Of a stretch of DNA of 64,000 nt, positions 5,526-46,493 are shown piece after piece. Position 1 is the first letter of the stretch; the number at the start of each line of letters is the position of its first letter. Both the position numbers and the translations under genes were made by a program. Under the pieces are notes generated by a model. That model was not told the origin of the DNA, searched no databases, and saw nothing but the letters and a program-made list of their open reading frames with translations. Origin of the DNA: Bacteroidota bacterium (GTDB lineage Bacteria > Bacteroidota > Bacteroidia > 2-12-FULL-35-15); NCBI GenBank assembly GCA_005772895.1, contig SXIH01000024.1, positions 26,428 to 90,427 on the forward strand. Direction: 5' to 3'.

Positions 5526-7094
5526 ATGAGGAAATCGCTACTCCCTGATAAGTACCATACTTACGTTTATATTTTCGCCTTAATTTTATTGGTGATAGGA
5601 ATGCCGCTATCAAAATTTTTGATGAGTCTCTCTCAAATTATTTTGGCCTGCAATTTTTTATTGGAAGGTGGAGTGATTGGAAAATTCAAAGCCTTCTTTA
5701 AAAATAAACCCGCACTCATTCTCAGTTCACTTTTTTTACTTCACGTAATAGGGTTACTATATACTTCTGATTTTGACTATGCATCAAAAGACATTCGGAT
5801 TAAAATGCCTTTGATTGTTCTTCCGTTGATTTTAGCTACTTCAAAACCGCTTTCTAAAAAAATAATTGATGTGATATTGCAATTTTTTGTTGCAGCCATT
5901 ATTGTTGGAACAATTATCAGCACACTTATTTTAACAGGAATCATTCACCGCGAACTGGTTGATATCAGAAGCGTTTCTATCTTCATTTCTCATATTCGTT
6001 TTGCATTATTGATTTGTATTGCATTGTTTGTATCGGGTTACTTCTTTTATCATTCAGTTAAACCGCTTCAAAAGGCACTCTGGATTTTAATAGGAGTTTG
6101 GTTGATATACTTTTTGATTTTAACCGAATCGATTACAGGATTATCTGCATTTTGTTTCGCAACACTAATAATTTGTATTTATTCCATCTTTAAATCAAAA
6201 CAAAAATTGATTCGGTTTTCCGGATTGTTACTGGTTGTATTAATTGGAATTTTTGTTTTTTATTTATTTAATCAACTTAATAAATCAAATCCTCCAACCG
6301 AAAAAATTGATTTATCAAAATTGGAAACAGCCACTTCTCGTGGAAATGCTTATGAACACGATTTAACAGGGAAGTTAACGGAGAATGGACACTTTATCTG
6401 GATTTATTTCTGTAACAAAGAATTAGAAGACTCATGGAATAAAAGAAGCGAACTAAAATTTTTTGAAAAAGATTTAAAAGGCAATCCACTCAATTTTACA
6501 CTTGTCAGATTTTTAGCATCCAAAGGTTTAAGAAAAGATGCAGATGCAGTTGAATCGCTTTCCGATGAAGAAATAAAAGCTATAGAAAGAGGAGTGGTGA
6601 ATGTCAACTATCAAAACATTTCGAGTTTAAAAAGAAGATTGCATGAAATAGCTTGGGAATTGGACACCTATAAAACAACAGGTGATCCAAGCGGACATTC
6701 ATTAACACAACGTTTTGAGTTTTGGAAAGCAGCTGTTGGAATTATTAAAGACAATCTTGTTTTCGGAGTGGGAACAGGTGATATTAAAAATGCATTTGAA
6801 CAACAATATGATAAAATGAATTCTCCGCTTACGAAAGAAACAAGATTACGTTCCCACAATCAGTACTTATCCATTGGAGTAGCATTCGGAATTGTTGGTT
6901 TGATTTGGTTTTTAATTACTCTTTTTTATCCAATGATATTGCAAGGGAAAACATTCGATTATTTATATATCAGTTTTTTATTGATTGCTATTGTTTCTTT
7001 CTTAACAGAAGATACACTTGAATCTCAGGCAGGAGTTACTTTCTATGCTTTCTTTAATTCTTTCTTTTTGTTTGTTATTAATAGGAAGGATTAA
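5526..7094 (+). CDS. O-antigen ligase family protein (Wzy/WaaL-like)
   Basis: Multi-TM, large soluble loop, GVGTGDIKNAF...RSHNQYLSIGVAFG; ATG at 5526 preferred over TTG at 5514. Confidence 0.85.
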   Translation: MRKSLLPDKYHTYVYIFALILLVIGMPLSKFLMSLSQIILACNFLLEGGVIGKFKAFFKNKPALILSSLFLLHVIGLLYTSDFDYASKDIRIKMPLIVLPLILATSKPLSKKIIDVILQFFVAAIIVGTIISTLILTGIIHRELVDIRSVSIFISHIRFALLICIALFVSGYFFYHSVKPLQKALWILIGVWLIYFLILTESITGLSAFCFATLIICIYSIFKSKQKLIRFSGLLLVVLIGIFVFYLFNQLNKSNPPTEKIDLSKLETATSRGNAYEHDLTGKLTENGHFIWIYFCNKELEDSWNKRSELKFFEKDLKGNPLNFTLVRFLASKGLRKDADAVESLSDEEIKAIERGVVNVNYQNISSLKRRLHEIAWELDTYKTTGDPSGHSLTQRFEFWKAAVGIIKDNLVFGVGTGDIKNAFEQQYDKMNSPLTKETRLRSHNQYLSIGVAFGIVGLIWFLITLFYPMILQGKTFDYLYISFLLIAIVSFLTEDTLESQAGVTFYAFFNSFFLFVINRKD

Positions 7095-7096
7095 TT

Positions 7097-7843
7097 TTAC
7101 GAATACAACTCCCTCAACTTCTTATATTTTAAATACGAATGTTTTGCAGAAATTTTACAAATTGTAAATCCTGCGGTTCCATCTAAAATTCCGAGTTTAA
7201 AAAAGTAGTCGCTGATGAATTTTACAATCGGACTGAACCATAATTGTATTACAGATGCTTTCTTTCCTTTCTCAAATAAATTTTGTGCAGCAAGGGTAGA
7301 AAATTTTTCTACTTGTAAATGGTGCTGTTCTATTGTGTAGTAGCTGTAATGCAGACAATCACCATTTAACAAAATCGCTTCTTGTTTTGAATCTATAGCC
7401 AACTTCTCGTGAATAATGCCTTCCCATTTGGTAATTCTTCTGTCAAAGATTCTGATTTTTGTATCAGGATACCAACCGCAATGTTTTATCCAGGAACCAC
7501 AGTAATTGGTCAAACGGTGAAATTTATAGCTTTTTAATTCTTTTCCTTCTTTCGCTTTTAGAATTGATTTTTTTAATTCTTCCGATAATGCTTCATCTGC
7601 ATCCAAGGATAAAACCCAATCGTATTTTGCTTGTGCGTTTGCAAAATTCTTTGATGTAGAATAACCTTCCCATTTACGGGAAATAAAGTTTACGTTGTGT
7701 TTTTTAGAAATACTTTCTGTAGCATCTGTAGAAAAGGAATCCAATATCACCACATCATCCGCAATTACCTGAATGGATTCAAGGCAGCGGCCAATGTTTT
7801 TTTCTTCATTAAACGTAATAATGACAACGGATAGTTGGAGCAT
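7097..7843 (-). CDS. Glycosyltransferase family 2 (WaaE/KdtX-like)
   Basis: LSVVIITFNEEKNIGRCLESI...LSLDADEALSEEL. Confidence 0.9.
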   Translation of the reverse strand: MLQLSVVIITFNEEKNIGRCLESIQVIADDVVILDSFSTDATESISKKHNVNFISRKWEGYSTSKNFANAQAKYDWVLSLDADEALSEELKKSILKAKEGKELKSYKFHRLTNYCGSWIKHCGWYPDTKIRIFDRRITKWEGIIHEKLAIDSKQEAILLNGDCLHYSYYTIEQHHLQVEKFSTLAAQNLFEKGKKASVIQLWFSPIVKFISDYFFKLGILDGTAGFTICKISAKHSYLKYKKLRELYS

Positions 7844-7880
7844 TTATAGATTGCTTTGTATTTCACAAAAGTAACACAAT

Positions 7881-8013
7881 TTTAACCACATAGGAACATA
7901 GAAAAGGAGGATAGTATAGAAAAATAAATTTTTACACAGAGAACTATGCGTGTACTTTATAATGGCTATGTTAAGCACCGCGCCTTTTTTATCTATGTTT
8001 CTATGTGGTTAAA
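7881..8013. repeat. MITE-like ~133 bp element with near-perfect terminal inverted repeats
   Basis: TTTAACCACATAGGAACATAGAAAA ... TTTTTATCTATGTTTCTATGTGGTTAAA. Confidence 0.8.
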
Positions 8014-8043
8014 TTTTCACATTTATATGCTATATTTGTAATC

Positions 8044-8946
8044 ATGTCAACAACCCAAACACTCATAAAACAATTACAGCAAGGCGATGAAAAAACATTG
8101 GCTCGTTGTATTACTATTGTTGAAAATGAGCTGGAGGGTTATGAAGAAATTCTGACATCCTTAAAATTCAATTCCAATATTCCTGTGGTTGGTGTAACGG
8201 GTCCTCCTGGTGCTGGGAAAAGTACATTAATAAATGCCGTTATTAAAAATCTAACCGCTCAGAAAAAGTCGGTTGGAATTATTGCGATTGATCCCACCTC
8301 TCCTTTTAACTATGGTTCTTTGTTGGGTGATAGATTAAGAATGGCAGAACATTTTAATAATGATAAAGTCTTTATCCGTTCTTTGGCAACACGTGGTTCT
8401 TTGGGTGGCTTGTCGGCAAAAACAATTGAGATTGTGGATGTGATGCGTGCTTTTTCATTTGATTATATTTTTGTGGAAACGGTGGGTGTCGGACAAAGTG
8501 AAGTGGAAGTGGTTGGTTTAGCAGATACAACAGTTTTAGTGCTTGTTCCTGAATCCGGAGACGATGTACAGGCGATTAAATCGGGAATCATGGAAATTGC
8601 AGATGTATTTGTGGTGAACAAATCGGATAGAGACGGAGCAAATACATTTATCAAAAATATTATTCAGTTAGTACATTCCAAAATGGCAAGTGATTGGAAC
8701 ATTCCCGTAATAAAAGGAATAGCAACCAAAGGCGAAGGTGTAGAGGAGTTGATTGAAGCGATTGACAAACACAATAAAGTAGGAGTAAACACAAAACGCT
8801 CTTATTTACTTGCAGAAAAAGCTTATCGTTTAATTCAGAATAAAAAAATGAAAGGTGTTTCGAAAATGGATTTGCAAAAACAGATTGATGCAGAATTGAA
8901 GAAGAAAGATTTTAATCTTTATAATTTTGTTAGGAGTTTGAAATAA
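8044..8946 (+). CDS. meaB: Methylmalonyl-CoA mutase-associated GTPase MeaB
   Basis: GVTGPPGAGKSTLINAVI, DPTSPFNYGSLLGDRLRM, VNKSDRDGA; upstream in-frame start at 8005 lies in the inverted repeat. Confidence 0.93.
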   Translation: MSTTQTLIKQLQQGDEKTLARCITIVENELEGYEEILTSLKFNSNIPVVGVTGPPGAGKSTLINAVIKNLTAQKKSVGIIAIDPTSPFNYGSLLGDRLRMAEHFNNDKVFIRSLATRGSLGGLSAKTIEIVDVMRAFSFDYIFVETVGVGQSEVEVVGLADTTVLVLVPESGDDVQAIKSGIMEIADVFVVNKSDRDGANTFIKNIIQLVHSKMASDWNIPVIKGIATKGEGVEELIEAIDKHNKVGVNTKRSYLLAEKAYRLIQNKKMKGVSKMDLQKQIDAELKKKDFNLYNFVRSLK

Positions 8947-11430
8947 TTACTCCTGATAGTATACCCTCTTCACTCTTCTCGAAACATTCGTTAACACTTC
9001 ATAAGGTATTGTTCCAATATCTTTTGCTACATCAGCAATCGGATTTTGATCTCCAAAAATAATTACTTCATCATTTTCGTTGGCCTGAATATCGGTAATA
9101 TCGATCATACACATATCCATACAAACATTTCCAATAATGGGTGCCTCTTTTCCTTTTACAATCATTTTCCCCGCTCCGTTACTGAGTTTACGGCTTAGTC
9201 CATCAGCATAACCTATCGGAACGGTTGCTATTTGTATGTCGCGGTTGGCAACACCTTTTCTGCTGTATCCGATGGTTTCTTTTGCTGGAATATTTTTGAT
9301 TTGTGAGATGCTAGTTTTTAATGTGCTCACATTTTGTAATTGTGTTTGTTCAGTTTTGTTTGCACCAATTCCGTATAATCCAATCCCTAATCTCACCATT
9401 TCAAATTGTGCATCCGGGAAACGGGAAATTCCGGCTGAATTTAAAATGTGTTTTAAAATCGGATAAGAAAAATGTGTTTTTATTTTTTCACTCATCTTAT
9501 TCAACTTCTTAATTTGTTGCCAAGTAAAATCATCGTGTTCATGTTCATCACTTGCCGCTAAATGTGAGAAAATGGATTTTATTGTAAGATGTTTGTTGTT
9601 GCTGATGCGGACAATCAATTCGTTTACTTCCTCTTCATCAAAACCCAAACGGTGCATTCCTGTGTCTAGCTTAATATGAATTGGAATGGGTTGAACATTA
9701 TTTCTTTCGCTGCGTTTTAATGTTTCTTCAAACAGGCTCAAGACTCTGAAACTGTAAATTTCAGGTTCTAAGTTGTATTGAATCATAGCATCATAACTTT
9801 GCTCTTCGGGATTCATTACCATAATCGGCATAGTGATTCCTGCTTTGCGTAATTCAATTCCTTCATCTGCATAAGCAACTGCCAAATAATCCACACGGTG
9901 AAACTGAAGAATGTTGGCTATTTCAAAACTTCCGCTTCCATAAGAAAACGCTTTTACCATTGCCATTACTTTGGTATCGGCTCTTAATTTTGAACGGTAA
10001 TAATTTAAATTGTGAACAATTGCATTCAAGTTAATTTCTAAAACTGTTTCGTGAGCTTTCTGTTGAATGATTTTACTAATAGCTTCAAAACTGAATGCAC
10101 GAGCTCCTTTCAAGAGAATGGTTTCATCTCTGAAAAAAGAATTATTGAAAGTCTGTAAAAATTCGGTAGTTGATTTATAAAAGCTTTTTTCGCAATTGAA
10201 CTGATTGGCTTGTGATGAAATTCCTTCACCAATTCCGATTAAACGGGAAATTCCTTTTTTGTGAATCAGCTCCGCAACTTCTTTGTAAAGTGTCGCATCA
10301 TTCTGTCCGCTCTGCAAAATATCCGAAAGAATAAGTGTTTTCTTTGGATGTTGTTTTTGCTGATTTAAAAAATCCAAAGCAATAGCCAAAGAACCTAAAT
10401 CAGAATTGTAACTATCGTTGATAATTGAACAGTTGTTGATCCCTTCTTTGAGTTCGAGTCGCATCGCAACCGGACTCAGGAACTTCATTCTTTCAGCAAT
10501 AACAACGCTTTCGTAACCTAAATAAAGCAAAGTAGCCCAGCAATGAATGGCATTTTCAATACTTGCTTCATCCGTAAACGGAATAGTAATACGAATAAAA
10601 TCATTTTTATAAACGCCTTGTATTTCGGTGTCAACTTCCGTTTTAGTAATTCGTCCAACCAATAAATCAGCACGCAGTTTTTTCGACCAGGTGAAAAATT
10701 TCGCTTCTGCAAAGGATTTATTGTTTGTTATTTCATCGTGAATTGTCAGATAATCTTTGCAATAAATCAATACTTCGGAATTCAAAAACAGTTTTAATTT
10801 TTCACAAACTTTTTGTTTTTGGTTTTCGAAATTTTCATCGTGTGCTTGTCCTATATTAGTAATAACGCCAATGGTAGGCTGAATAATATTTTCAAGCAAG
10901 CGCATTTCTTTTGGCTTGGAAATACCGGCTTCAAAAATTGCCAAATCATGTTCTTCGGAAATTTGCCAAACAGAAAGCGGAACACCAACTTGTGAATTGA
11001 AACTTTTCGGACTGCGAACAATATTTTTGTCTTCACGCATCAGCTGATACAACCATTCTTTCACAATGGTTTTTCCGTTACTTCCTGTAATTCCAACAAC
11101 AGGAATTTTAAATTGTTGTCGGTGATAAGCACAAAGTTGTTGAAGTGCAAGCAGTGTATCATTAACTAAAATAAAACTTGCATCGTTGAAAGCAGAAAGA
11201 TTATTCGGCAGAGAAGAAACAACAAAATGACGAACACCTTTTTCGAAAAGTTCGATTAAGTAAGCATGTCCATCATGACGTTCACCTTTTATAGCAAAAA
11301 ACAAAGACGTTTCTGCGTTGGAAAGTTTACGGCTATCAATCAATAAATTTTTAATAGAAGCAGTAGAAGCATTATTCCCACTGATGTTTCCATTAACGAT
11401 TGAAGATATTGCGGAGATGGAGTAATTCAT
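8947..11430 (-). CDS. Bifunctional UDP-N-acetylmuramoyl-tripeptide--D-Ala-D-Ala ligase / alanine racemase
   Basis: MurF ATP site GITGSNGKTIVKEW and Alr PLP motif AMVKAFSYGSG; start set at MNYSISAIS because the upstream extension is repeat-derived. Confidence 0.93.
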   Translation of the reverse strand: MNYSISAISSIVNGNISGNNASTASIKNLLIDSRKLSNAETSLFFAIKGERHDGHAYLIELFEKGVRHFVVSSLPNNLSAFNDASFILVNDTLLALQQLCAYHRQQFKIPVVGITGSNGKTIVKEWLYQLMREDKNIVRSPKSFNSQVGVPLSVWQISEEHDLAIFEAGISKPKEMRLLENIIQPTIGVITNIGQAHDENFENQKQKVCEKLKLFLNSEVLIYCKDYLTIHDEITNNKSFAEAKFFTWSKKLRADLLVGRITKTEVDTEIQGVYKNDFIRITIPFTDEASIENAIHCWATLLYLGYESVVIAERMKFLSPVAMRLELKEGINNCSIINDSYNSDLGSLAIALDFLNQQKQHPKKTLILSDILQSGQNDATLYKEVAELIHKKGISRLIGIGEGISSQANQFNCEKSFYKSTTEFLQTFNNSFFRDETILLKGARAFSFEAISKIIQQKAHETVLEINLNAIVHNLNYYRSKLRADTKVMAMVKAFSYGSGSFEIANILQFHRVDYLAVAYADEGIELRKAGITMPIMVMNPEEQSYDAMIQYNLEPEIYSFRVLSLFEETLKRSERNNVQPIPIHIKLDTGMHRLGFDEEEVNELIVRISNNKHLTIKSIFSHLAASDEHEHDDFTWQQIKKLNKMSEKIKTHFSYPILKHILNSAGISRFPDAQFEMVRLGIGLYGIGANKTEQTQLQNVSTLKTSISQIKNIPAKETIGYSRKGVANRDIQIATVPIGYADGLSRKLSNGAGKMIVKGKEAPIIGNVCMDMCMIDITDIQANENDEVIIFGDQNPIADVAKDIGTIPYEVLTNVSRRVKRVYYQE

Positions 11431-17569: not shown

Positions 17570-19651
17570 TTAGTCCATTTTCGTGACCTTTTTCACCAAA
17601 AACCCATTATCTGTAGCAATATTCAACAGATACATCCCATTTTTTAAGCTGATCGAATTCAGGTCAATTTCTATGGTGTTTTCTCCTTCTGAATAGTCTT
17701 TCTTCTCAATTTGTTTCACAACTTTTCCTAATACGTCCGTTAATTCCATTTTTATTGTTTGTGAGCTTGGTAAATAAAAACTCATTTTAAATGAATTGGA
17801 AAATGGGTTTGGATAAATTGTGAAATTATTTTCAGTAAATATATTTTCGTTTATTCCAACATTGCATGTTCCGGGTAAATTTGCGTCCATCCACAAAATT
17901 CTATCGTTGATCCAATTTTTAATTGCCAATATTTCTCCTGGATAATCTGCCGGAATAGGACTTGGATTTGGCCAGGTATAGGCGCCTAAAATTGGCCAAG
18001 CTGTAAAATGACGGGCTTGTGCTTCATCTAAATACAATGCTAAAGAATCTACATAATTATTTAAAACAGGAATACTCAAAGTTGTTAAACGCAATTCATC
18101 CCATCTGCAATGCAACTCAGCAACATATTGTGGATCTTGTAACAACCGTGCCCACCAAAAATTTGGCTGCCAGCCATCACCGCTACAAACAGATGGGAAA
18201 TTATAAGCCCAACCTGAAGTTACATCGCCTTGACAATAATCTGCATTCCACCAGGCAAGATTGAAATCCCATGCCGGACCAGCTTTTAACTTGCCGCCTT
18301 TACTTTGTTTGTCTTTGTAAAAAAATGTGCTCAAACGATAACCATCCACATTTTTACTCACTTCATTTAAAATAAAATAATCTATGAACGTATTCACGCC
18401 AATGTATTTTCTATAACCGTTAATAGGGTCAGCAAAAGTAGAACTCGCCAAAACGTCTTCCACCGTATCAACATAAGCCATAATGTAATTTCTTTGTTGA
18501 GTAACAATCACTCCATTTTCAGGATACACGTGCACAAAATTGATGGGCGATCCTGTCGGAGAAGGGTAGGGCGATGTCCAGTAACTTCCCGGACCATCAT
18601 CTCTGTCAACTTTAATAATATAGCCACCGGTTAAATCATCTCCGCTTATTTCTGTCGGATCAAGCTTAGGAACATTTATTCTGTTCGAATCGCGTTTTAC
18701 TTTTTCCATCAAAACATAAATTCCCTGATACTGATTATTAATTACCAATTCACAAAATTGCGTGCGTGATGCATAACGACCGGTTTTATTTGCAATGTCA
18801 TACGTAAGAACATTTCGCATACAGGTTTTATCATCGTAAGGAGCATACAAAATCCAATCGTGTTCTTCAGGCATTCCTAGTAAGATTGTATCTTTTTTTA
18901 TTCCAAGATTATCTCTAGTTTCGAAACCATAACTTTTTTGCGGGAACCAGGATGAACTGGAACCACGTGTTTCAATTCCTATTTTATTATTGTAATTATT
19001 ATGTGGGTCGGTCATGTAATTTCGTACACCAAAACCATTGTAAATAATTCCCATTTGTGCGGCCAACTTAGGTTCGTTTGGAATTGTCATACCGCCTGTA
19101 TTAACAACTACAATAGGTAAGTTGGAAGAAGTAAAGTTAAACGGAAGAGCAGGAGTGTTTCCAAATGTAATACTCCAGTCAATTAAATTTCCGGCATCCG
19201 CTCCGTAAGTATCTTCAATCAATAATTTCCAAACACCATTTGCATTTTGTCCGTTATTGAAAGCACCAATAAATCCTTGCGGACGAAAGGTTCCTGTAAA
19301 CGGAGCATTTTCAGTTACAATAGAATTTGCTGCAAAAGCATTTAAACAAGTATTGGTATAATTGTCTCCGTCACTACCATTCGCAATTGATAAATCCACA
19401 ATAGTTCCATCAGGCGATTGCAATGAAATATTTAAATCGGCATCCCAAGTATGTGTAATGTTAAAACAAATTGTTTCTATTCCGAAAATAGTATCAATGG
19501 TTGCCGGACTCAATCCTGAAACTGTCATCGGAAAATTTACCATCGGTCCGCCATCAGGAATCGGTCCGCCAGCAGTACTTGTATACGTTTGTCCAAAAGT
19601 TGGAACTGAAATAATTGTAAAAAAGAATAATATTATTTTTTGCATAATCAT
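17570..19651 (-). CDS. Exported P/Homo B domain + CotH kinase-like domain + T9SS type A C-terminal domain
   Basis: P-domain (FNITHTWDADLNISLQSPDGTIVDLS...GVWKLLIEDTYGADAGNLIDWSITFG), CotH motifs (KSYGFETRD, INNQYQGIYVLMEKVKRD, GYIIKVD, AGPAWDFNLAWWN), CTD (YPNPFSNSF...GMYLLNIATDNGFLVKKVTKMD). Confidence 0.88.
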   Translation of the reverse strand: MIMQKIILFFFTIISVPTFGQTYTSTAGGPIPDGGPMVNFPMTVSGLSPATIDTIFGIETICFNITHTWDADLNISLQSPDGTIVDLSIANGSDGDNYTNTCLNAFAANSIVTENAPFTGTFRPQGFIGAFNNGQNANGVWKLLIEDTYGADAGNLIDWSITFGNTPALPFNFTSSNLPIVVVNTGGMTIPNEPKLAAQMGIIYNGFGVRNYMTDPHNNYNNKIGIETRGSSSSWFPQKSYGFETRDNLGIKKDTILLGMPEEHDWILYAPYDDKTCMRNVLTYDIANKTGRYASRTQFCELVINNQYQGIYVLMEKVKRDSNRINVPKLDPTEISGDDLTGGYIIKVDRDDGPGSYWTSPYPSPTGSPINFVHVYPENGVIVTQQRNYIMAYVDTVEDVLASSTFADPINGYRKYIGVNTFIDYFILNEVSKNVDGYRLSTFFYKDKQSKGGKLKAGPAWDFNLAWWNADYCQGDVTSGWAYNFPSVCSGDGWQPNFWWARLLQDPQYVAELHCRWDELRLTTLSIPVLNNYVDSLALYLDEAQARHFTAWPILGAYTWPNPSPIPADYPGEILAIKNWINDRILWMDANLPGTCNVGINENIFTENNFTIYPNPFSNSFKMSFYLPSSQTIKMELTDVLGKVVKQIEKKDYSEGENTIEIDLNSISLKNGMYLLNIATDNGFLVKKVTKMD

Positions 19652-21702
19652 TGTGAAATTAATTTTCCTGTGGCAATAATTTTCTCTGAAGTTTTTAATT
19701 GATAAAAATACATTCCGGGATTCATTGCATCATTGTTAATAGTAATTGAGTTTTTCCCATTCGGAATAAATAATGTTTTTATTTTTTTACCAAGCATGTC
19801 GTAAATTTCTAATTCTTTTTCTGAAGCATGCTCATAAGTAAAAGTGAAAGTTGTACTTGATGAAAACGGATTAGGAAAAATTTTCACATTCGCTTTTTCT
19901 GAATTGTATTCCGGTGCCGAAAGGTTCCAGCACAGACTAGGCAAATTTACATCCATCCATTGAGAGCGTGCCTGAAACCACCATTTTAAATAATCAACTT
20001 CTTCCTGATAGTTGGCGCCAATAAAATAATTCCAGTTTACATAAGTTCCCATAATCGGCCACAAAGTAAAATTTCTCTGTTGCGATTCGTTGAGATATAA
20101 AGCTATGGAATCAATCCAAATATTAATTGAATCGGTATCTAAAATTCCCATTCTCAATTCTGTCCAGCGACATTTCACTTGGTTTGCATAAGCTGTATCT
20201 TGTAGCAAACGAGGCCACCAGTTGGGTGGTTCTGAAGTAAAGGTCGGACAAACAGTTGCAAAATTATATTGCCATCCTGTTGTATCAAAAGCATCACAAT
20301 AATCTGCGTTGCCATACGAAAGATTAAAATCCCACATCGGTCCGCAACTTAATTTTCCTCCTTTGCTGTCTTTATCTTTATACATAAAACTGCTGGAGCG
20401 ATAACCATCCACTGTTCTGCCTAATTCCTGCATAAGAAAAAAATCAACGAATGAACCTGTATTAATGTATGCTCTAAAACCCGTTGTTAAATCCGAAAAG
20501 GTTGGACCGTAAACTACATTTTCAAAAGTGGTCACATAATTTTTTATATAATTTAATTGTGGTACTGTCAGCTCAATGTCTTCCGGATCGTGATAAAGAA
20601 ATTTTACTTTTGGTTGGTAAGGCGAAGTCCATGTAGTAGAACTGCTTCCTGTTACTTTATCTACTTTAATAATGTATCCGCCCGTTAAAGAATCTCCTGC
20701 ATTATCATCCAAATCTAATTTTGCAATATCCACTCTGTTTTTATCACGCTTCACTCTTTCAAGCAATGTATAAACTCCCATGTACTGATTGTTTATCACC
20801 AATTCGCAATAAACATAACGTGGCGAATAAGGTTGCATTTTCGAAAACAAGTTGTAAGTGATTTCATTTCTCATCAATGTTTTATCCGGATAAGCGCCAT
20901 ACAAAATCCAATCGTTTTCACTTGGCATTCCTAATAATGAAACATTTACTTTTGCACCAAGTGCATCTCTTGTTTCTACTCCGTACGATTTTTTTGGATA
21001 TTGTTGTGATGTAGAACCTCTTATTTCAATGGCAATTTTTCCATTGTAATTATTAAAAGTATCTGTCATATAATTTCTAACGCCAACACCATTGTAAATA
21101 ATTCCCATGTCGCATGTAATTTTCGGATCATCAGCAATCGTTTGTCCCAAAGTATTTAAAACAACAATTGGAAGATTAGAAGAATAAAACGGAAATGGTT
21201 TTGAAGGTGTATTTCCGAAAGTGATATTCCAACTGATAAGGTTGCCGATATCGCCAAATGAATTATCGTTGATTAATAAATTCCAAACTCCGTTACCTGC
21301 TTGTCCGTTATTTAATGAACCAATATAACCTTGCGGACGAAAGGTTCCGGTAAACGGAGGAAATCCCAAGACAATGGAAGTAGCAGCGAATCCATTAAAA
21401 CAAGTATTGGTATAATCCGAACCGCCCCATCCATTGGAAACAGAAAGGTCAACAATGTTTCCATCAGGCGCCTGAATGGCAATTTGCAAGTCGGAAGCCC
21501 AGCTGTGACTGATATTAATACAAATACTTTCTAAACCGAAAATGGTATCAATAGTTGTAGGAGAAAGTCCGGAAACGGTTATAGGAAAAGCAACCTGCGG
21601 ACCGCCATCAGGAATAGAACCACCCGCAGCACTTGAATAAGTTTGTGCTTTTGAAAGGAATATCGAGAATACTAAAATAGTTAGCAGGTAAATCTTTCTC
21701 AT
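19648..21702 (-). CDS. Exported P/Homo B domain + CotH kinase-like domain + T9SS type A C-terminal domain (paralog)
   Basis: Same architecture: KKSYGVETRD, INNQYMGVYTLLERVKRD, CGPMWDFNLSYGN; CTD FPNPFSSSTTF...GMYFYQLKTSEKIIATGKLISQ; 4-bp ATGA overlap with downstream gene. Confidence 0.88.
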   Translation of the reverse strand: MRKIYLLTILVFSIFLSKAQTYSSAAGGSIPDGGPQVAFPITVSGLSPTTIDTIFGLESICINISHSWASDLQIAIQAPDGNIVDLSVSNGWGGSDYTNTCFNGFAATSIVLGFPPFTGTFRPQGYIGSLNNGQAGNGVWNLLINDNSFGDIGNLISWNITFGNTPSKPFPFYSSNLPIVVLNTLGQTIADDPKITCDMGIIYNGVGVRNYMTDTFNNYNGKIAIEIRGSTSQQYPKKSYGVETRDALGAKVNVSLLGMPSENDWILYGAYPDKTLMRNEITYNLFSKMQPYSPRYVYCELVINNQYMGVYTLLERVKRDKNRVDIAKLDLDDNAGDSLTGGYIIKVDKVTGSSSTTWTSPYQPKVKFLYHDPEDIELTVPQLNYIKNYVTTFENVVYGPTFSDLTTGFRAYINTGSFVDFFLMQELGRTVDGYRSSSFMYKDKDSKGGKLSCGPMWDFNLSYGNADYCDAFDTTGWQYNFATVCPTFTSEPPNWWPRLLQDTAYANQVKCRWTELRMGILDTDSINIWIDSIALYLNESQQRNFTLWPIMGTYVNWNYFIGANYQEEVDYLKWWFQARSQWMDVNLPSLCWNLSAPEYNSEKANVKIFPNPFSSSTTFTFTYEHASEKELEIYDMLGKKIKTLFIPNGKNSITINNDAMNPGMYFYQLKTSEKIIATGKLISQ

Positions 21703-24193: not shown

Positions 24194-25213
24194 ATGGATA
24201 AAGACATCATGCCGCAATCAAATGATATAATATTTTATTCATCACCCGATGGTGATGTAAGAGTAGAAGTGTTTTTTCAAGAAGAAACATTTTGGTTAAG
24301 CCAAAAGAAAATTGGAGAGCTATTTGGCAAATCGAAAGCCACTATTAGCGAACATTTAAAAAACATTTTCGAAACAGAAGAATTAAACGAAAAATCAGTT
24401 GTTCGGAAAATCCGAACAACTGCCGAAGATGGCAAATTATATCACACTAATTTTTACAACCTTGACGCAATTATTGCAGTTGGATACCGTGTAAACAGTT
24501 TTCAGGCAACACAATTTCGTATTTGGGCAACTAAAACGTTGAGGGAATTTATTATTAAAGGTTTTGTATTGGATGATGAACGTCTGAAACAAGGCAAACG
24601 CTTTGGTAAAGATTATTTTGACGAATTACTTGAACGTATCCGCGAAATTCGTGCAAGTGAAAGACGTTTTTATTTGAAAATAACCGACATTTATGAGCAA
24701 TGTAGTATAGATTATAAAAAAGACGCTGAGATAACACAAACATTTTTTAAAACAGTTCAAAATAAATTGCATTGGGCAACGACTGGTAAGACTGCTGCAC
24801 AAATAATTTCAGAACGAGCAAGTTCTATAAAGCCTAATATGGGTTTGCAGACTTGGAAGAATGCACCCAAAGGAAAAGTTTTAAAAACCGATGTTTCTAT
24901 TGCTAAGAATTATTTAATTGAAAAGGAAATTAAAGAACTGGAACGCGTTGTAACTATGTATTTAGATTATGCGGAAAATCAAGCGGCAAGGCAAATACCA
25001 ATGAAAATGACAGAGTGGATTACAAAACTTGATGCTTTTTTACAGTTCAATGAATATCAAATATTAAAAGACGCAGGTAATGTGAAACATGAAGTAGCAA
25101 AGCAATTAGCTGAAAATGAGTATGAAAAATTTAGAATAACTCAAGATAAGAATTTTGAAAGTGATTTTGAAAGTGAAACAAGAAAAATCTCGGACAAGAA
25201 AAAGAAAAAATAA
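24194..25213 (+). CDS. RhuM family virulence-type protein
   Basis: YSSPDGDVRVEVFFQEETFWLSQKKIGELFGKSKATISEHLKNIFETEELNEKSVVRKIRTTAEDGK...NLDAIIAVGYRVNS. Confidence 0.93.
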   Translation: MDKDIMPQSNDIIFYSSPDGDVRVEVFFQEETFWLSQKKIGELFGKSKATISEHLKNIFETEELNEKSVVRKIRTTAEDGKLYHTNFYNLDAIIAVGYRVNSFQATQFRIWATKTLREFIIKGFVLDDERLKQGKRFGKDYFDELLERIREIRASERRFYLKITDIYEQCSIDYKKDAEITQTFFKTVQNKLHWATTGKTAAQIISERASSIKPNMGLQTWKNAPKGKVLKTDVSIAKNYLIEKEIKELERVVTMYLDYAENQAARQIPMKMTEWITKLDAFLQFNEYQILKDAGNVKHEVAKQLAENEYEKFRITQDKNFESDFESETRKISDKKKKK

Positions 25214-25781: not shown

Positions 25782-26189
25782 ATGACAAAAAATGAACTAA
25801 TAGAATTGCTTTTCGAAGCATATAAGAATGGATCTCTCGTGACCCCAAAACATAATCCCAAAGAGCTTTCGAAGGTTATGCCTAAATTCAGAACGGTTAT
25901 TTCTGATGAGGTATATGACAATCTTTATCATTGTTTAGAAACAGGAATCGAGAAAATATATGAATATCAAAATAGCAAAGGAGCCTACTATGAAATTTGT
26001 CTTAACTCAAAATATGAATTCGCATCTTCTGGTGTTCATGAGTATTGTCCTTTCCCTTTTGAGGGTTATAATAGAATAATTGCTGTATATGGAGAAAAGC
26101 GAAAGTGGCATATTTTCGGAGAAACAAGTACTAAAATTGAAGAGAAAATTAAAATAGGAGAACTAATCAATAAGGTTGAATTAGTGTGA
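25782..26189 (+). CDS. Hypothetical soluble protein
   Basis: Complete ORF with coding-like composition; no family recognised. Confidence 0.6.
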   Translation: MTKNELIELLFEAYKNGSLVTPKHNPKELSKVMPKFRTVISDEVYDNLYHCLETGIEKIYEYQNSKGAYYEICLNSKYEFASSGVHEYCPFPFEGYNRIIAVYGEKRKWHIFGETSTKIEEKIKIGELINKVELV

Positions 26190-39363: not shown

Positions 39364-39438
39364 GACATCTACTAGTACGTATACTCTCGTTCATCAGTAA
39401 AAAATATGTAATTGTCGAAATTAAATTATAAAAACAAA

Positions 39439-42216
39439 ATGGTAAAAAGTAAATTACTCCTAAGTTGCACGCTACTCCTGGCGTTCTCTTTATTAAAAAC
39501 CAATTCAAATGCTCAGGTATGGCCAGTTGGCCCTGATGTTTATATTCAGGGAACAAGTGTAGAATTTGGAATCCGCGGTATTGGCGGGTTTGAAGGAATT
39601 GATGTTGCAACATCTCCTGTTCCACTTGGAATGCACTTGCGTTCTGCAAACAACTTGTTTGGATTCGTTGCTAATCCTCAATTAAATGCTTGGGCAGGTT
39701 CTGCATTTGATGGCGATTTCTTTACTCCTGGAAGTCCTGAAAATGGATGGGGGTATGAAATCGGAACTACAGGAACTGTAGCAGCGGGAACTCTAGGCGG
39801 TAATAACTGTGCTTATTTACAGCAAATAGATGGCGCAATGACAGGTACAAATACAATTTTTAGTTGTTACGAAGCTGATTGGGAAGGCGATGCTACAACA
39901 GGAACTGATCTTCATTTTAAAATAAATTACTTTTTGCAAGCTGGTGATTTATTTTATACAACCACTGTATCTATTACCAATAACACATCTGCAACAATTC
40001 CAGAGATGTACTACTATAGAAATTTGGATCCGGATAATAACCAGGAAATTGGTGCTGGTTTTACTACTAATCAAGAGATTGTAGATAACCCTCCATCATC
40101 TTTATGTAATCTTGCTCACGTAGCAGCAACACAAACTACCCCATGGAATAATTATCTTGGATTAGCGGCTATTGGCCCTAACTGGAGGGCATGTTACGGA
40201 GGTTTCTCTAATCGTGATGGTTCTGATTTATGGAATGCAGTTGGTTTTACTCAAACAGTAGGTGCTACAAATACTGCTGATGAAGGGATTTCACTAGCGT
40301 ATAAAATTACAAACTTAGCTCCAGGGGCAACAGAAACATTTAAATTCTTAATCATTTTGGATGCAGCATCTGCAAACAACGCGATTAACAACTCATTATA
40401 TTTTACTTATCCCGGATCTTCAGGAGCACCTCCTTCTGTATGTACACCTTACGTAGATACTGTTATGACTTGTGGAGGACCTGTGCCAATTTCAATTACC
40501 GGTCCAATTGTAAATGATTTTTCTTGGTCTTGGACACCAACAGCAGGATTAACGCCAGCAACAGGGCCAACTGTTGTTGCCAACCCGTCTGTTACTACTA
40601 CTTATACCGCTACCGGAACACCACTGAATTCATGTGTTAACCCGGTTACACTGACATTTGTCGTGATGGTTACTCCGGGTGGAGGTAATAACCCTGTTAT
40701 TACTGCCGTCCCTCCGATGTGCGTCTCCGATCCGGCCGTCACATTTGTGGCCGATACCGCTGGCGGAATGTGGTCTGTTACTCCAAGTTGTGGTGGATGT
40801 TTGAATGCCACAACAGGTGTGTTTGACCCTTCATTAGCAGGGGCAGGAACATATTTGATTACTTATACAACTACTAATACATGTAATTCAACAGATACAA
40901 TGAATGTGGTTGTAAATGGTACAGATCCTACAATTGCTGCTACAACGCCTGTTTGTGCGGGTTCAGCACCATTTACTATGACAGCTGCTTCAGGCGGTGG
41001 AACATGGTCAGCTACATGCGGTAGTTGTATTAATTCATCAACAGGATCGTTTGACCCAACAACTGCCGGAACATTTACGGTGACATATTCAATTGCCGGA
41101 ACATGTACTGCTGTGGATACACAATTAGTTGTAGTAAATCCAACGGTCCCTCCTACAACTGGTTTCTCTTATAATAGTCCGGTTTGTATAGGTGGTCCGA
41201 ATCCAACATTAACTACTGTTGCAGGATTTACAACAGGAGGTGTGTTCTCTGCAACACCTGCAGGTTTATCTATTAACTCTGGAACAGGTGCTGTGGATTT
41301 ATCTACTAGTTCAGCTGGAACATATACGATTACTTATTCGTATGCTGCTACAGGTTGCGGACCTGCTGGTTCAAGTACTTCCACATTGGTGGTTGATCCA
41401 CTGATTGTACCGGTACTTGGATTCTCATATCCTCAAACTTGTGCTACTGATACAGCTGATGCATCACCAACACCAGTGGCTGGTTTCACAACTGGTGGAA
41501 CATATACTTCAACTCCAGCCGGACTAGTGATTGATGCTATTACCGGTGTGATTGATGTAAATAACAGTACACCTGGAACATATACAATTACTTATTCTGT
41601 TGTTGGTTCTACTGTATTATGTACTGCATCAGGAAGCGGAACAGCTTCATTTACAATTAATCCTTTACCAGTTATAATGATGGGTGGTGAACAAACTGTT
41701 TGGATAGGAGATGGAACATGGATTTATGCAGCTGGTGGTGCTACTTATTCTTGGAGCCCTACACAATATTTAGGTTGTCCTACATGCGATAGTACTACAG
41801 CAACTCCACCACAAACAACAGAATATTGTGTTACAGTAACTACTGCAGCAGGTTGTATCGACAGTGCTTGTGTGAAAGTAAATGTTGAAATACCTTGTCC
41901 AAGCAATAGAAACTTAGGTCTACCAAACGCATTTAGTCCTAATAATGATGGCTTTAACGATGGCTTCTGCTTGAATGGTTGGGGTGATTGTATCGCTAAA
42001 TTTGAAATAGTAATCTTCGATCGTTGGGGAGAAAAAGTTTACGAATCACATGACCCTGATTTCTGTTGGGATGGTGTATACAAAGGAAAAGCTTTAGATC
42101 CTGCTGTGTTTGTTTATTTCGTTAAGGCGACTTATGAAACTGCTGGAACAACACCTATTAGTCCTAAAGGGACAGTGGATGTAAATAAAACAGGAAATAT
42201 TTCTCTTGTCAGATAA
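39439..42216 (+). CDS. Gliding-motility-associated C-terminal domain (T9SS type B) surface protein with Ig-like repeats
   Basis: Signal peptide; type B CTD NLGLPNAFSPNNDGFNDGF...FDRWGEKVYES...WDGVYKGKALDPAVFVYFV; ATG 39439 preferred over TTG 39412. Confidence 0.88.
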   Translation: MVKSKLLLSCTLLLAFSLLKTNSNAQVWPVGPDVYIQGTSVEFGIRGIGGFEGIDVATSPVPLGMHLRSANNLFGFVANPQLNAWAGSAFDGDFFTPGSPENGWGYEIGTTGTVAAGTLGGNNCAYLQQIDGAMTGTNTIFSCYEADWEGDATTGTDLHFKINYFLQAGDLFYTTTVSITNNTSATIPEMYYYRNLDPDNNQEIGAGFTTNQEIVDNPPSSLCNLAHVAATQTTPWNNYLGLAAIGPNWRACYGGFSNRDGSDLWNAVGFTQTVGATNTADEGISLAYKITNLAPGATETFKFLIILDAASANNAINNSLYFTYPGSSGAPPSVCTPYVDTVMTCGGPVPISITGPIVNDFSWSWTPTAGLTPATGPTVVANPSVTTTYTATGTPLNSCVNPVTLTFVVMVTPGGGNNPVITAVPPMCVSDPAVTFVADTAGGMWSVTPSCGGCLNATTGVFDPSLAGAGTYLITYTTTNTCNSTDTMNVVVNGTDPTIAATTPVCAGSAPFTMTAASGGGTWSATCGSCINSSTGSFDPTTAGTFTVTYSIAGTCTAVDTQLVVVNPTVPPTTGFSYNSPVCIGGPNPTLTTVAGFTTGGVFSATPAGLSINSGTGAVDLSTSSAGTYTITYSYAATGCGPAGSSTSTLVVDPLIVPVLGFSYPQTCATDTADASPTPVAGFTTGGTYTSTPAGLVIDAITGVIDVNNSTPGTYTITYSVVGSTVLCTASGSGTASFTINPLPVIMMGGEQTVWIGDGTWIYAAGGATYSWSPTQYLGCPTCDSTTATPPQTTEYCVTVTTAAGCIDSACVKVNVEIPCPSNRNLGLPNAFSPNNDGFNDGFCLNGWGDCIAKFEIVIFDRWGEKVYESHDPDFCWDGVYKGKALDPAVFVYFVKATYETAGTTPISPKGTVDVNKTGNISLVR

Positions 42217-42251
42217 CGTTTAAGAGAGATAAGAGGGAAGAAAATTTAAAT

Positions 42252-43322
42252 ATGAAAAAAGTAATTTTAATTATTGGAGGGGTTTTCGTAGTAGGGGGAA
42301 GTGCATTTTCGCAAGATTTGCACTTTTCTCAGTACAACGAAAATCCTTCTCTGCTTAATCCGGCTCTTACAGGTTCTTCCTATGTAATGAGAGCATCTGT
42401 TATTTATAAAGATCAGTGGCGTAGTGTTACTGTTCCTTATAAAACATTTGGTGCTTCTTTTGACATGAAGTTCAAAGCAAGTAGTTGGGATAAAGTGGAT
42501 CCGTTTAAAACAAGAACATTTAAAAAATCTTTTAATAGAGTATCTGGCGGATTAGCGTTTTATAGTGATAAAGCGGGTGATGGAAACATGGGAACTAACC
42601 TTGTGAATCTTTCATTGGCTACATTTATCAAAGCAGGAGACCACTCTTCATTTTCATTAGGGTTGCAAGGAGGAGTGGTTCAAAAAACAATCGACTATTC
42701 TAAATTGATTTTTTCTAATCAATATAATGGTTCAACCGGATATGATCAAACAATTCCCAATGGAGAACAATACGGCTCTAAAAGCTTTGTGTATGCTGAT
42801 TTTGCAGGTGGTTTGCTTTGGAATTATTCACGAGAAGAATCTTCTATTGGAGAAAATAATCAGATAAAAGCAGACGCTGGTGTTGGTGTTTTTCACATCA
42901 ACAGACCAAAACAAAAATTTTTAGTTGGAACAAATGAAAAATTATTTTCTAAATATGTTGTTCACGGAAAATTATTGATGGGAATTCCTCATTCAAATGT
43001 TGGGTTAGCTCCAAGTATTATTTATCAAGTTCAAGGACCTACTAAAGAAATTATAGGTGGATTGATGATTAAGTATTACCTAAAAGATGATTCGAAATAT
43101 ACTGGTTATATAAAGAGATCTTCTATAGGATTAGGTGTTTATTATCGTGCTAAAGATGCTGTTATTGCTAATATTCTTATTGAAATGGGGCAATATGCAA
43201 TAGGTTTCAGTTATGATATAAATACCTCTAACCTTAGTAAAGTAAGTACTTTAAGAGGTGGTCCGGAAATTATGTTGAGATTTAATTCGGCAAATCCATA
43301 CCTATTCCAAAAACGATATTAA
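42252..43322 (+). CDS. PorP/SprF family type IX secretion membrane protein
   Basis: DLHFSQYNENPSLLNPALTGSSYVMRASVIYKDQWRSV. Confidence 0.95.
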   Translation: MKKVILIIGGVFVVGGSAFSQDLHFSQYNENPSLLNPALTGSSYVMRASVIYKDQWRSVTVPYKTFGASFDMKFKASSWDKVDPFKTRTFKKSFNRVSGGLAFYSDKAGDGNMGTNLVNLSLATFIKAGDHSSFSLGLQGGVVQKTIDYSKLIFSNQYNGSTGYDQTIPNGEQYGSKSFVYADFAGGLLWNYSREESSIGENNQIKADAGVGVFHINRPKQKFLVGTNEKLFSKYVVHGKLLMGIPHSNVGLAPSIIYQVQGPTKEIIGGLMIKYYLKDDSKYTGYIKRSSIGLGVYYRAKDAVIANILIEMGQYAIGFSYDINTSNLSKVSTLRGGPEIMLRFNSANPYLFQKRY

Positions 43323-43345
43323 TACCACTGTTTTAAAATTTTTTT

Positions 43346-43380
43346 AGCCCTGAGGTTCAACCTTAGGGCTTTTGTTTTTT
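43346..43380 (+). terminator. Rho-independent terminator
   Basis: AGCCCTGAGG-TTCAA-CCTTAGGGCT then TTTGTTTTTT. Confidence 0.88.
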
Positions 43381-43470
43381 GTAGTTTTTAAGCTACCCTT
43401 TCGAAACCTAAGAATGAACCATAATAGACTTCCAAAACTGCTCATTTAATTGAAATTTATCTTACTTTTA

Positions 43471-43490
43471 TGCAACTATATCTGGTTTTT
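43471..43490 (+). promoter_or_regulatory. Upstream motif shared with 39343-39363
   Basis: TGCAACTATATCTGGTTTTT, 64 nt before the ATG. Confidence 0.5.
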
Positions 43491-43553
43491 AATCGTCTAT
43501 GATATACTAAAACTGAGCAAGAAATTACCAATTAATATATAGAAGAATTTAAG

Positions 43554-46493
43554 ATGAATAATTCACTATCAAAAAACAGAATGATTTTAAATGCAATTTT
43601 TATTGTTGCATTTTCTTTCTTTCAATATACTGTTGCTAAAGCGCAGATTTATCCTGTTGGTCCGGACATGTACGTTAAAGGTACAAGCATAGAATATGGA
43701 ATTGATGGTTTAGGTGGTTACGAAGGGGTAGATATTATGGCTTCTCCTGTTCCGGGTGGTATGCACTGGCGTTCAGGTAACCAACTTTTTGGATTTATGG
43801 CTAACCCACAATTAAATTCATGGGCTGGTTCTGCATTTGATGGAGATTTTTTTACACCCGGTAGTCCGGAAAACGGCTGGGGTTTTGAAATTGGAACAAC
43901 CGGTGGAATTTCTCAAGGAAACAATTGTGCATATCTTCAACAAATTGATGGTGCAATCACAGGAAGCAGTACAGTTTTTAACTGCTACAATGTAGATTGG
44001 GAAGGAGACGCAACTTCAGGAACTGATTTGCATTTCAAAATTAATTATTTCTTACAGCAATCAGATTTATATTATACTACAACAGTTTCCATTACTAACA
44101 ATACTACTGCAACTATTCCGGAATTATACTATTACAGAAATGTTGACCCGGATAACAATCAACCAATCAGTGGAACATTTACAACCAATCAGGAAATTGT
44201 AGATAATCCTCCAACATCATTGTGTAACCTTGCACACGTGAGTGCAATTATGACAACTCCTTGGTCGTCATACCTTGGCTTTGCAGCTATTGGTGCTAAT
44301 TGGAGAGCTTGTTACGGAGGTTTTTCTAATCGTGATGCTTCTGATTTATGGAATGGATCAGCTCCATTTACACAAGCTGTAGGTGCTACAAATACTGCTG
44401 ATGAAGGAATTTCATTGGCATACAAAATTACGAATCTTGCTCCGGGAGCTACAGAAACATTTAAGTTTTTAATTATCCTGGATGCAGCATCTGCTAATAA
44501 CGCAATCAACAATTCATTATATTTCTCATATCCAGGTTCTGCAACAGCACCTCCATCAGTATGTACTCCATATGCTGATACTGTCAGAACTTGTGGTGGT
44601 CCGGTTCCTATTACAATCACTGGCCCTATTGTGGGAGATTATTCTTGGTCTTGGACGCCAACAACCGGACTATCTCCTACTACAGGACCATCGGTTGTTG
44701 CTAATCCTGCTACTACAACCACTTATACAGCTACCGGAACACCTCTGAATACTTGTGTGAATCCTGTTGCGCTTACTTTTGTTTGCTTGGTAACTCCAAG
44801 TACTGGCGCTAATCCTGTGATTGTTCCTGTCGGACCTTCCTGTCAGGGAGATCCTGCATTTAATCTTGCAGTCGATTCTACAGGTGGATTATGGTTAGGT
44901 ACCGGAATCACAAGTACAACTTTAGGAACGTTTGATCCAACAGTTGCCGGACCGGGAACTCATTTGATTACCTATTACACTAGCAATCCATGCAACAATA
45001 TTGATACAATCAACATTACAGTATTGAGTTCTGCAAGTGCAACTATTACTCAACCTGCTCCAGTTTGTGAAGGAACTGCTCCGTTTAATTTAGGTGCTGC
45101 AGCTCCAGGAGGAGTTTGGTCTGGAACAGGAATTACAAATACTTCTTTAGGAACATTTGATCCTACAGCTGCTGGTACCTATACTGTTCAATATGATATT
45201 TCAGGGACTTGTCCTTCAACAGATACAGCAATTGTTACCGTGAATCCTATTTTTGATGCAACAATTACTCAACCACCTGTTCAATGTATCGCTTCTCCTG
45301 CGTTTAACTTAACTGCAGTAGATGGTGGAGGTGCTTGGACTGGTACTGGTATTACAAGTGTTCCTGCTGGAACATTTAATCCGGCTATTGCAGGTGTAGG
45401 AACACATATTATTACTTATACTATTTCAGGACCTTGTCCGGCTATAGACACAGTTGTTATTACTGTTTTAGCTGTATTCAATGCAACTATTACCAACGTG
45501 AATCCGATGTGTGTGAATGCTCCTGCATTTCTTATGACAGCAGCTTCTCCGGGTGGTGCTTGGACAGGAACAGGAATTACCAACTCAGCAACAGGAACAT
45601 TTGACCCGGCTACAGCTGGTGCAGGTATTCATACTGTTACTTATACTATTGCCGGAACATGTGGTACGAGTGATACAACAGTTGTAACAGTTGTAGCATT
45701 GCCTGTTATAACACTTACTCCTGATACTACAGAAGGTTGTGATCCTAAAGTAATTTCTTTTGTTGGAACAGATGATCAACCGGGCGGAGTGTATGATTGG
45801 GATTTTGGAGTATTAACTACTTTAGGAGATACTTCACATTTATCTAATCCTACGTATCAATATTCTACTGGTGTTTATACAGTAACAATGACTTATACAA
45901 ATTCTATTGGATGTGCGAGCACAATAGTTGCTACAAATTTAATTACTATACATGCCCGTCCTACTGCGATGTTTACTTCAACGCAGCCTGCCGATATTAT
46001 TGAACCAACTATTTATTTTACCGATCAAAGTGTAAGCATTGGAGCAATTACAAACTGGGCATGGATATTTGAACCGGGAGCAACATCTATATTGCAGCAT
46101 CCGAATTACTCATATTCTCAAGAAGGAATTTATCCTGTAGAGTTGACCATTACCAATGTTTATGGCTGTAAGGATACTGTTGAAAATAATGTGGTAGTAA
46201 ATCCAGTTTACTTACTGTATGCACCAAATGCATTTACTCCAAATGCTGATGGACTAAACGATGTATTTATTGTTCAAGGTGAAGGAATAGATCCTGATAA
46301 TTTCGAGATGTTAATTTTTGATCGTTGGGGTGAGCGCATCTTTAAAACTACCGATTTACATACCGGTTGGAATGGCGCTAAAAATAATTCCGGCACATTG
46401 GTTCAGGAAGATGTATATGTTTATAAAATTGTGCTGAAAGACTGGCAAGGAAGACGACACCAATACATTGGTCACGTAACGATAGTGAAGTAA
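43554..46493 (+). CDS. T9SS type B CTD surface protein with four Ig-like repeats and two PKD domains; paralog of 39439..42216
   Basis: N-terminal ~300 aa closely similar to paralog; PKD (YDWDFG, YSYSQEGIYPVELTITN); type B CTD YAPNAFTPNADGLNDVFIV. Confidence 0.9.
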   Translation: MNNSLSKNRMILNAIFIVAFSFFQYTVAKAQIYPVGPDMYVKGTSIEYGIDGLGGYEGVDIMASPVPGGMHWRSGNQLFGFMANPQLNSWAGSAFDGDFFTPGSPENGWGFEIGTTGGISQGNNCAYLQQIDGAITGSSTVFNCYNVDWEGDATSGTDLHFKINYFLQQSDLYYTTTVSITNNTTATIPELYYYRNVDPDNNQPISGTFTTNQEIVDNPPTSLCNLAHVSAIMTTPWSSYLGFAAIGANWRACYGGFSNRDASDLWNGSAPFTQAVGATNTADEGISLAYKITNLAPGATETFKFLIILDAASANNAINNSLYFSYPGSATAPPSVCTPYADTVRTCGGPVPITITGPIVGDYSWSWTPTTGLSPTTGPSVVANPATTTTYTATGTPLNTCVNPVALTFVCLVTPSTGANPVIVPVGPSCQGDPAFNLAVDSTGGLWLGTGITSTTLGTFDPTVAGPGTHLITYYTSNPCNNIDTINITVLSSASATITQPAPVCEGTAPFNLGAAAPGGVWSGTGITNTSLGTFDPTAAGTYTVQYDISGTCPSTDTAIVTVNPIFDATITQPPVQCIASPAFNLTAVDGGGAWTGTGITSVPAGTFNPAIAGVGTHIITYTISGPCPAIDTVVITVLAVFNATITNVNPMCVNAPAFLMTAASPGGAWTGTGITNSATGTFDPATAGAGIHTVTYTIAGTCGTSDTTVVTVVALPVITLTPDTTEGCDPKVISFVGTDDQPGGVYDWDFGVLTTLGDTSHLSNPTYQYSTGVYTVTMTYTNSIGCASTIVATNLITIHARPTAMFTSTQPADIIEPTIYFTDQSVSIGAITNWAWIFEPGATSILQHPNYSYSQEGIYPVELTITNVYGCKDTVENNVVVNPVYLLYAPNAFTPNADGLNDVFIVQGEGIDPDNFEMLIFDRWGERIFKTTDLHTGWNGAKNNSGTLVQEDVYVYKIVLKDWQGRRHQYIGHVTIVK

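Follow-up and report, generated by a model that had tools for sequence, protein, structure and literature searches.

A tandem pair of predicted exported P-domain CotH proteins in a Bacteroidota genome, and the Ser-type clade to which they belong

Two overlapping genes in a 64,000-nucleotide stretch of the genome of an uncultured Bacteroidota bacterium (contig SXIH01000024.1; hereafter the window) encode proteins, W693 and W684, that join a P-domain to a CotH kinase-like domain and a type A T9SS sorting tail. As their sequences place them, they belong to a large, undescribed variant clade inside the CotH family (PF08757), in which serine takes the position of the catalytic-loop asparagine. In architecture the pair is ordinary; the clade is uncharacterised, the active-site change is specific, and the pattern of module exchange in tandem copies was unexpected. 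We regard as evenly balanced the whole explanation proposed here, that W693 and W684 are paralogous exported phosphotransferases of the CotH fold with P-domain docking and altered metal use.

Gene pair, fold and export route

The first-pass annotation had described two open reading frames of 693 and 684 codons overlapping by ATGA, with a signal peptide, P-domain, CotH domain and type A C-terminal domain (CTD) in both products, and this description is borne out (Table 1), with the signal peptide a putative one. The HMM search it had proposed finds CotH (PF08757) in W693 (E=2.8e-58, 198.4 bits) and W684 (E=2.9e-56, 191.8 bits) against a curated family cut-off of 23.8 bits; P_proprotein (PF01483; E=6e-11 and 2.9e-8, respectively) and Por_Secre_tail (PF18962; E=2.6e-12 and 4.3e-11) likewise lie far over their curated Pfam cut-offs, and the T9SS type A sorting domain TIGR04183 is also recognised in both by NCBIfam. 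The proteins are 52% identical over 680 aa. The overlap suggests that the two genes are translationally coupled; a promoter scan found sites no more numerous than in shuffled sequence.

Table 1. Features of the W684/W693 gene pair and of P-domain proteins with another partner domain. Active-site residues are listed in the order B. subtilis (Bs) D228 equivalent, PKA N171 position, adenine-stacking Trp, Bs D251 equivalent.
Feature	Position	Strand	Basis or remark
W693, P-domain/CotH/T9SS type A protein, 693 aa	17570..19651	-	ORF and Pfam
W684, P-domain/CotH/T9SS type A protein, 684 aa	19648..21702	-	ORF and Pfam
ATGA overlap	19648..19651	-	W684 stop TGA and W693 start ATG; W684 upstream, W693 downstream
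W693 P-domain coding part	19151..19591	-	~residues 21-167
W684 P-domain coding part	21205..21645	-	~residues 20-166
W693 layout	putative signal peptide ~1-20, P-domain ~21-166, CotH 226-587, CTD 612-689		residues
W684 CotH domain	225-583		residues
W693 active site	D436, S441, W461, D462		residues
W684 active site	D432, S437, W457, D458		residues
P-domain/lysyl oxidase-like/PKD/type A tail proteins	L184:1442-3280, L185:711-2534, L186:583-2400, L187:698-2530		loci in relatives

Structure prediction, also among the checks that had been proposed, points the same way. An AlphaFold model of W693 built from 70 homologues (mean pLDDT 91.8, pTM 0.80) finds as its best Foldseek match in the PDB 5jda, the B. 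cereus CotH with Mg2+/AMP (E=2.1e-14, TM 0.76 by target), followed by 5jd9 (the same protein without Mg2+/AMP), the P-domains of Kex2 and furin and, lower, a T9SS C-terminal domain, so that fold and sequence agree on all three domain assignments.

The N-termini are signal peptide-like as judged by eye, and the Gln that follows the putative cleavage site is invariant in the 70 homologues. Type A T9SS tails number at least 150 in the genome, which also encodes SprA, so the T9SS export route is present. With type A tails on both proteins, the predicted T9SS export stands, and W693 and W684 are almost certainly exported, to judge by their sequences: they would leave the cytoplasm by way of Sec, fold, and then be carried across the outer membrane by T9SS, finishing on the cell surface or beyond it. 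Action in the cytoplasm is unlikely for such a cargo. Outside cells, ATP is scarce.

Active site and spread of the Ser-type clade

CotH from Bacillus is inactivated by D228Q and by D251A (PMC7821199). A review states that CotH retains equivalents of PKA D166, N171 and D184 and that its adenine is sandwiched between Tyr142 and Trp245 (PMC12189002). A profile of the CotH proteins of this genome gives an alignment to 5jd9 that spans the entire domain (E=3.9e-34); the 5jd9 aspartate pair is 23 residues apart, which is the spacing of D228 and D251 in B. subtilis CotH, and the stretch around the N171 position aligns without gaps (Asp+5, as in PKA). From this spacing and the statement in PMC12189002 we infer that 5jd9 Asn229 is the probable equivalent of PKA N171.

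In 125/125 clade members (104, plus 21 from across the phylum) both catalytic/metal aspartates and the Trp that stacks on adenine are kept without exception, and all 125, like W693 and W684, carry Ser at the N171 position, where 27 of 29 other Bacteroidota CotH proteins have Asn. The clade set was gathered with queries from the clade, so that these counts speak for constancy of the residues and not for abundance of the clade. Asn in the catalytic loop belongs to those Bacillus enzymes that have been characterised; the PF08757 definition does not ask for it. The Tyr142 position is Lys in most clade members, and equally so in Asn-type Bacteroidota CotH. In nearly all members the third residue past the catalytic Asp is R or K, and 5jd9 position 234 is Lys; Lys at 5jd9 position 83 is found in 104/104 members of the first clade set. 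T430 of W684 stands where 103/104 members have Asn. Between W693 and its closest orthologue dN/dS is about 0.09 (NG86) with dS near 1, so that W693 is, by this sequence measure, under strong purifying selection.

Residue conservation and purifying selection together speak for a working enzyme, and the missing Asn speaks for an altered metal site. Pseudokinases, too, can lack the N171 equivalent, and CASK is active without the canonical metal ligands. The earlier statement that the key motifs are kept, implying activity, is right as to the two aspartates and too strong as a whole, the N171-equivalent Asn being Ser throughout the clade. Conserved motifs alone do not imply activity, and kinase activity of the pair is likely rather than established. 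That W693 and W684 are catalytically active on a nucleotide we consider probable; that they are protein kinases with an extracellular or surface substrate falls slightly short of an even chance.

Ser-type members form one clade, with SH-aLRT support of 100 even when the column of the Ser is removed, and the tree calls for the change to Ser only once (trees were quick and built without bootstrap). A scan of species-level genomes gave 107 relatives, from which 80 loci were kept; all loci together yield about 100 distinct P-domain CotH proteins, nearly all labelled Bacteroidota, and the one record labelled Rhizobium is a metagenome-assembled genome, probably mislabelled. CotH of any type occurs in 146 of the 247 genomes sampled from Bacteroidia, and Ser-clade-like proteins (E<=1e-100) in 44 of the 198 sampled from the phylum. 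Outside Bacteroidia the matches begin past the P-domain, which is thus usually missing there; the 21 proteins read from among these matches all carry Ser. Within Bacteroidia the P-domain is a common CotH partner, present at about 100 species loci, and not the unusual one that it had been called.

Relative to Bacillus CotH (B. subtilis; B. cereus 5JD9/5JDA; PF08757), the window pair shares the fold, D228, D251, the adenine-stacking Trp and a Glu at chain position 124, and differs in having Ser for the catalytic-loop Asn, Lys for Tyr142, and an extra P-domain and CTD; the Bacillus enzyme acts on the forming spore coat, whereas the window pair is predicted to be exported by Sec and T9SS. Canonical Bacteroidota T9SS CotH proteins (e.g. 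L013:7043-8542, in this genome) share the CotH fold, type A tail and catalytic aspartates, but keep NxDSY...HNYYxY with its Asn, lack a P-domain and form a separate clade. In proposed role the pair might be compared with Fam20C and VLK, the animal secretory-pathway kinases, as exported kinase-fold enzymes modifying extracellular proteins; Fam20C works with imported ATP in the Golgi, a compartment with no counterpart for the window pair. CotH has been reported to resemble Fam20C (PMC12189002). Our literature search, which covered few subscription journals, found no paper on T9SS-exported Bacteroidota CotH, nor any test of a Bacteroidota CotH.

P-domain matching in tandem copies

The first-pass annotation had called W693 and W684 tandem paralogs; an ordinary tandem duplication does not survive comparison by domain: the P-domains are 69% identical, the kinase domains 54%, and the kinase domains are not sisters on the tree. 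In several species of the genus, orthologues of the W693 kinase domain occupy the same position (recJ - P-domain CotH - corA - rsmI). The W684 kinase domain finds its nearest match (61%) in a P-less CotH of another family, while its P-domain is W693-like. The W684 P-domain is no closer to that of W693 than to those of the W693 orthologues, so the window pair suits one older exchange.

P-domain matching was examined in all pairs of 110 distinct P-domain CotH proteins, with non-tandem pairs of like kinase identity as controls. The analysis was exploratory, in that the pattern was noticed before it was tested on the same loci and on the newly fetched L211, L213 and L214. Eight tandem pairs (the window pair and those at loci L131, L213, L211, L029, L046, L028 and L032) have P-domain identities of 68-89%, a level reached by at most 0.6% of matched non-tandem pairs; L131 and L213 come from near-identical species and are therefore counted as one event, and several other matched pairs share related kinase types, so the independent events are fewer than eight, at least four by our reading. 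In L131, L213 and L211 the DNA is 84-87% identical in the P-domain versus ~60% in the kinase domain, in tracts that are flanked by diverged signal peptides and end shortly past the P-domain. The L029 P-domain is closest to that of its tandem mate (84%), its kinase domain to genes elsewhere. Pairs from one genome but from separate loci resemble the controls, and genome-wide matching was accordingly rejected.

The newly fetched arrays divide: L213 and one L211 pair agree with matching, and L214 disagrees. At L211:1784-12997 four P-domain CotH genes stand in array, and 4-base overlaps of the kind seen between W684 and W693 link three of the four; the remaining pairs of this array show matching weakly or not at all. 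In the short/long gene pairs of L132, L133 and L214, which look like one orthologous arrangement, the relation is reversed, with P-domains 39-46% and kinases 63-65% identical. We read the P-domain and kinase domain as separate evolutionary modules, with short-type tandem copies tending to carry the same P-domain.

The P-domain itself shares the fold of its proprotein convertase namesake (PF01483; furin, Kex2), with the difference that the window pair has no subtilisin domain, the partner being a kinase or, in relatives, a lysyl oxidase. Exported proteins of relatives carry the same type of P-domain (up to 158 bits) together with a lysyl oxidase-like domain, PKD and a type A T9SS tail (Table 1), in keeping with a module that docks enzymes acting on the matrix.

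Gene neighbourhood, other CotH genes and possible function

Among 529 clustered neighbour ORFs in 92 P-domain CotH loci no recurrent partner gene was found, nor any conserved neighbour that points to a substrate; clustering yielded mainly within-genus housekeeping synteny (recJ, dnaG, corA, rsmI). In related genomes recJ and dnaG are much closer together than in the window, where a gene at 24194-25213, whose product we take by eye to be RhuM-like, and a small ORF at 25782-26189 lie between them. Possible substrates had been placed among the T9SS surface proteins at 39-54 kb, which comprise type B T9SS cargo, a PorP/SprF protein and an SBBP-repeat protein. At 39412-46493 a PorP/SprF-family gene is flanked by genes for two paralogous type B cargo proteins, 62% identical over their first 720 aa, the second of which has many partial paralogues in the genome. 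For the product of 43554-46493, the one protein of this region that was searched, the closest orthologues (in genomes G010 and G005) are on contigs other than that of the W693-like gene; paralogues do lie ~15 kb from a W693-like gene in G006 and G010, a proximity that we take as background synteny. No conserved link to W693-like genes was established, and the case for the 39-54 kb proteins as linked substrates is unsupported.

The genome (3.54 Mb in 71 contigs, ~93% complete) has 12 CotH genes, three with a P-domain, the third being on contig C71 (L015:2433-4541). Seven of the nine P-less genes encode a T9SS tail, with either no extra domain or lamin-tail, chitobiase-like or Fn3-associated domains, and two, in one locus, have no tail. 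Contig C58 holds, one gene apart (L016:3318-5051, 6386-8968), a CotH gene whose aspartates are intact and a gene for a CotH-like 860-aa protein with His and Glu at the D228/D251 equivalents, an apparent kinase/pseudokinase pair by sequence; a VTC polyphosphate polymerase gene is in the same locus. Both VTC genes of the genome are within ~3 kb of a CotH gene (contigs C34 and C58; L013, L016, L180, L181), which fits the CotH/polyphosphate polymerase/DUF4956 clusters reported to adjoin pel operons (PMC7112168). A polyphosphate link to W693 and W684 was rejected, the VTC genes adjoining other CotH genes and none lying near a P-domain CotH.

In the explanation that we prefer, the P-domain would dock the enzyme on a target at the surface or outside, and the CotH domain would modify a nearby surface or matrix protein by transfer of a phosphoryl group, or of another group derived from a nucleotide. 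The invariant change of catalytic-loop Asn to Ser predicts altered metal use, with either a single metal or one that is not Mg2+. Matched P-domains with divergent kinases would bring tandem copies to a common place, there to act on different substrates or sites, the P-domain being, as we read it, one shared address to which different kinases are attached. Gene conversion alone could yield the same pattern, and there is a real possibility, though below even, that the matching is purely mutational, through conversion between neighbours or fusion on gene arrival, and has no functional meaning: the sharp DNA tracts of L131, L213 and L211 ending just past the P-domain are of the kind expected, and the window pair has the look of a single old exchange. 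Against this, the tracts leave out the kinase domain in 8/8 pairs from several lineages, the kinases staying divergent, and the reverse relation in L132, L133 and L214 means that matching is no automatic effect of tandem position.

A further reading, which we hold unlikely, is that of surface pseudokinases or adhesins, in which the CotH fold would be a binding scaffold and the protein would fasten the cell to other cells or to matrix, as has been proposed for Mucorales CotH3 in its role as an invasin. Loss of the N171 equivalent throughout the clade, export to an ATP-poor place, and the suitability for adhesion of a P-domain and of long PKD-bearing variants all speak for it, as does the precedent of some Mucorales CotH proteins that are surface ligands of GRP78 (PMC9973265). 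Invariance of both catalytic Asp and the Trp in all 125 proteins across the phylum would be unexpected were catalysis lost, however, and the truly degenerate CotH of the same genome has lost both Asp, unlike the clade. Kinase-fold SelO and SidJ perform AMPylation and glutamylation, and this precedent, with the altered catalytic loop, would allow an enzyme that is active by another transfer of that kind, or with another donor (polyphosphate, GTP), instead of an ATP-dependent protein kinase; the two VTC genes close to other CotH genes would suit such a donor. Since none is near a P-domain CotH and nothing specific indicates a different chemistry, we think this less likely still than a pseudokinase or adhesin. 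Returning to exported phosphotransferases, the most far-reaching form of that explanation, a Bacteroidota surface phosphorylation system with an exchangeable P-domain address, tandem divergent Ser-type CotH kinases delivered by T9SS to one and the same extracellular target, and a metal mechanism that differs from those of known CotH kinases, we put forward as doubtful.

Across Bacteroidia, CotH proteins form a widespread group of predicted exported enzymes. Their activity, if borne out, would establish that proteins are phosphorylated outside bacterial cells, and one would have to ask what donates the phosphate; the invariant Ser offers a one-residue handle on the mechanism, and exchange of the P-domain a route to the target.
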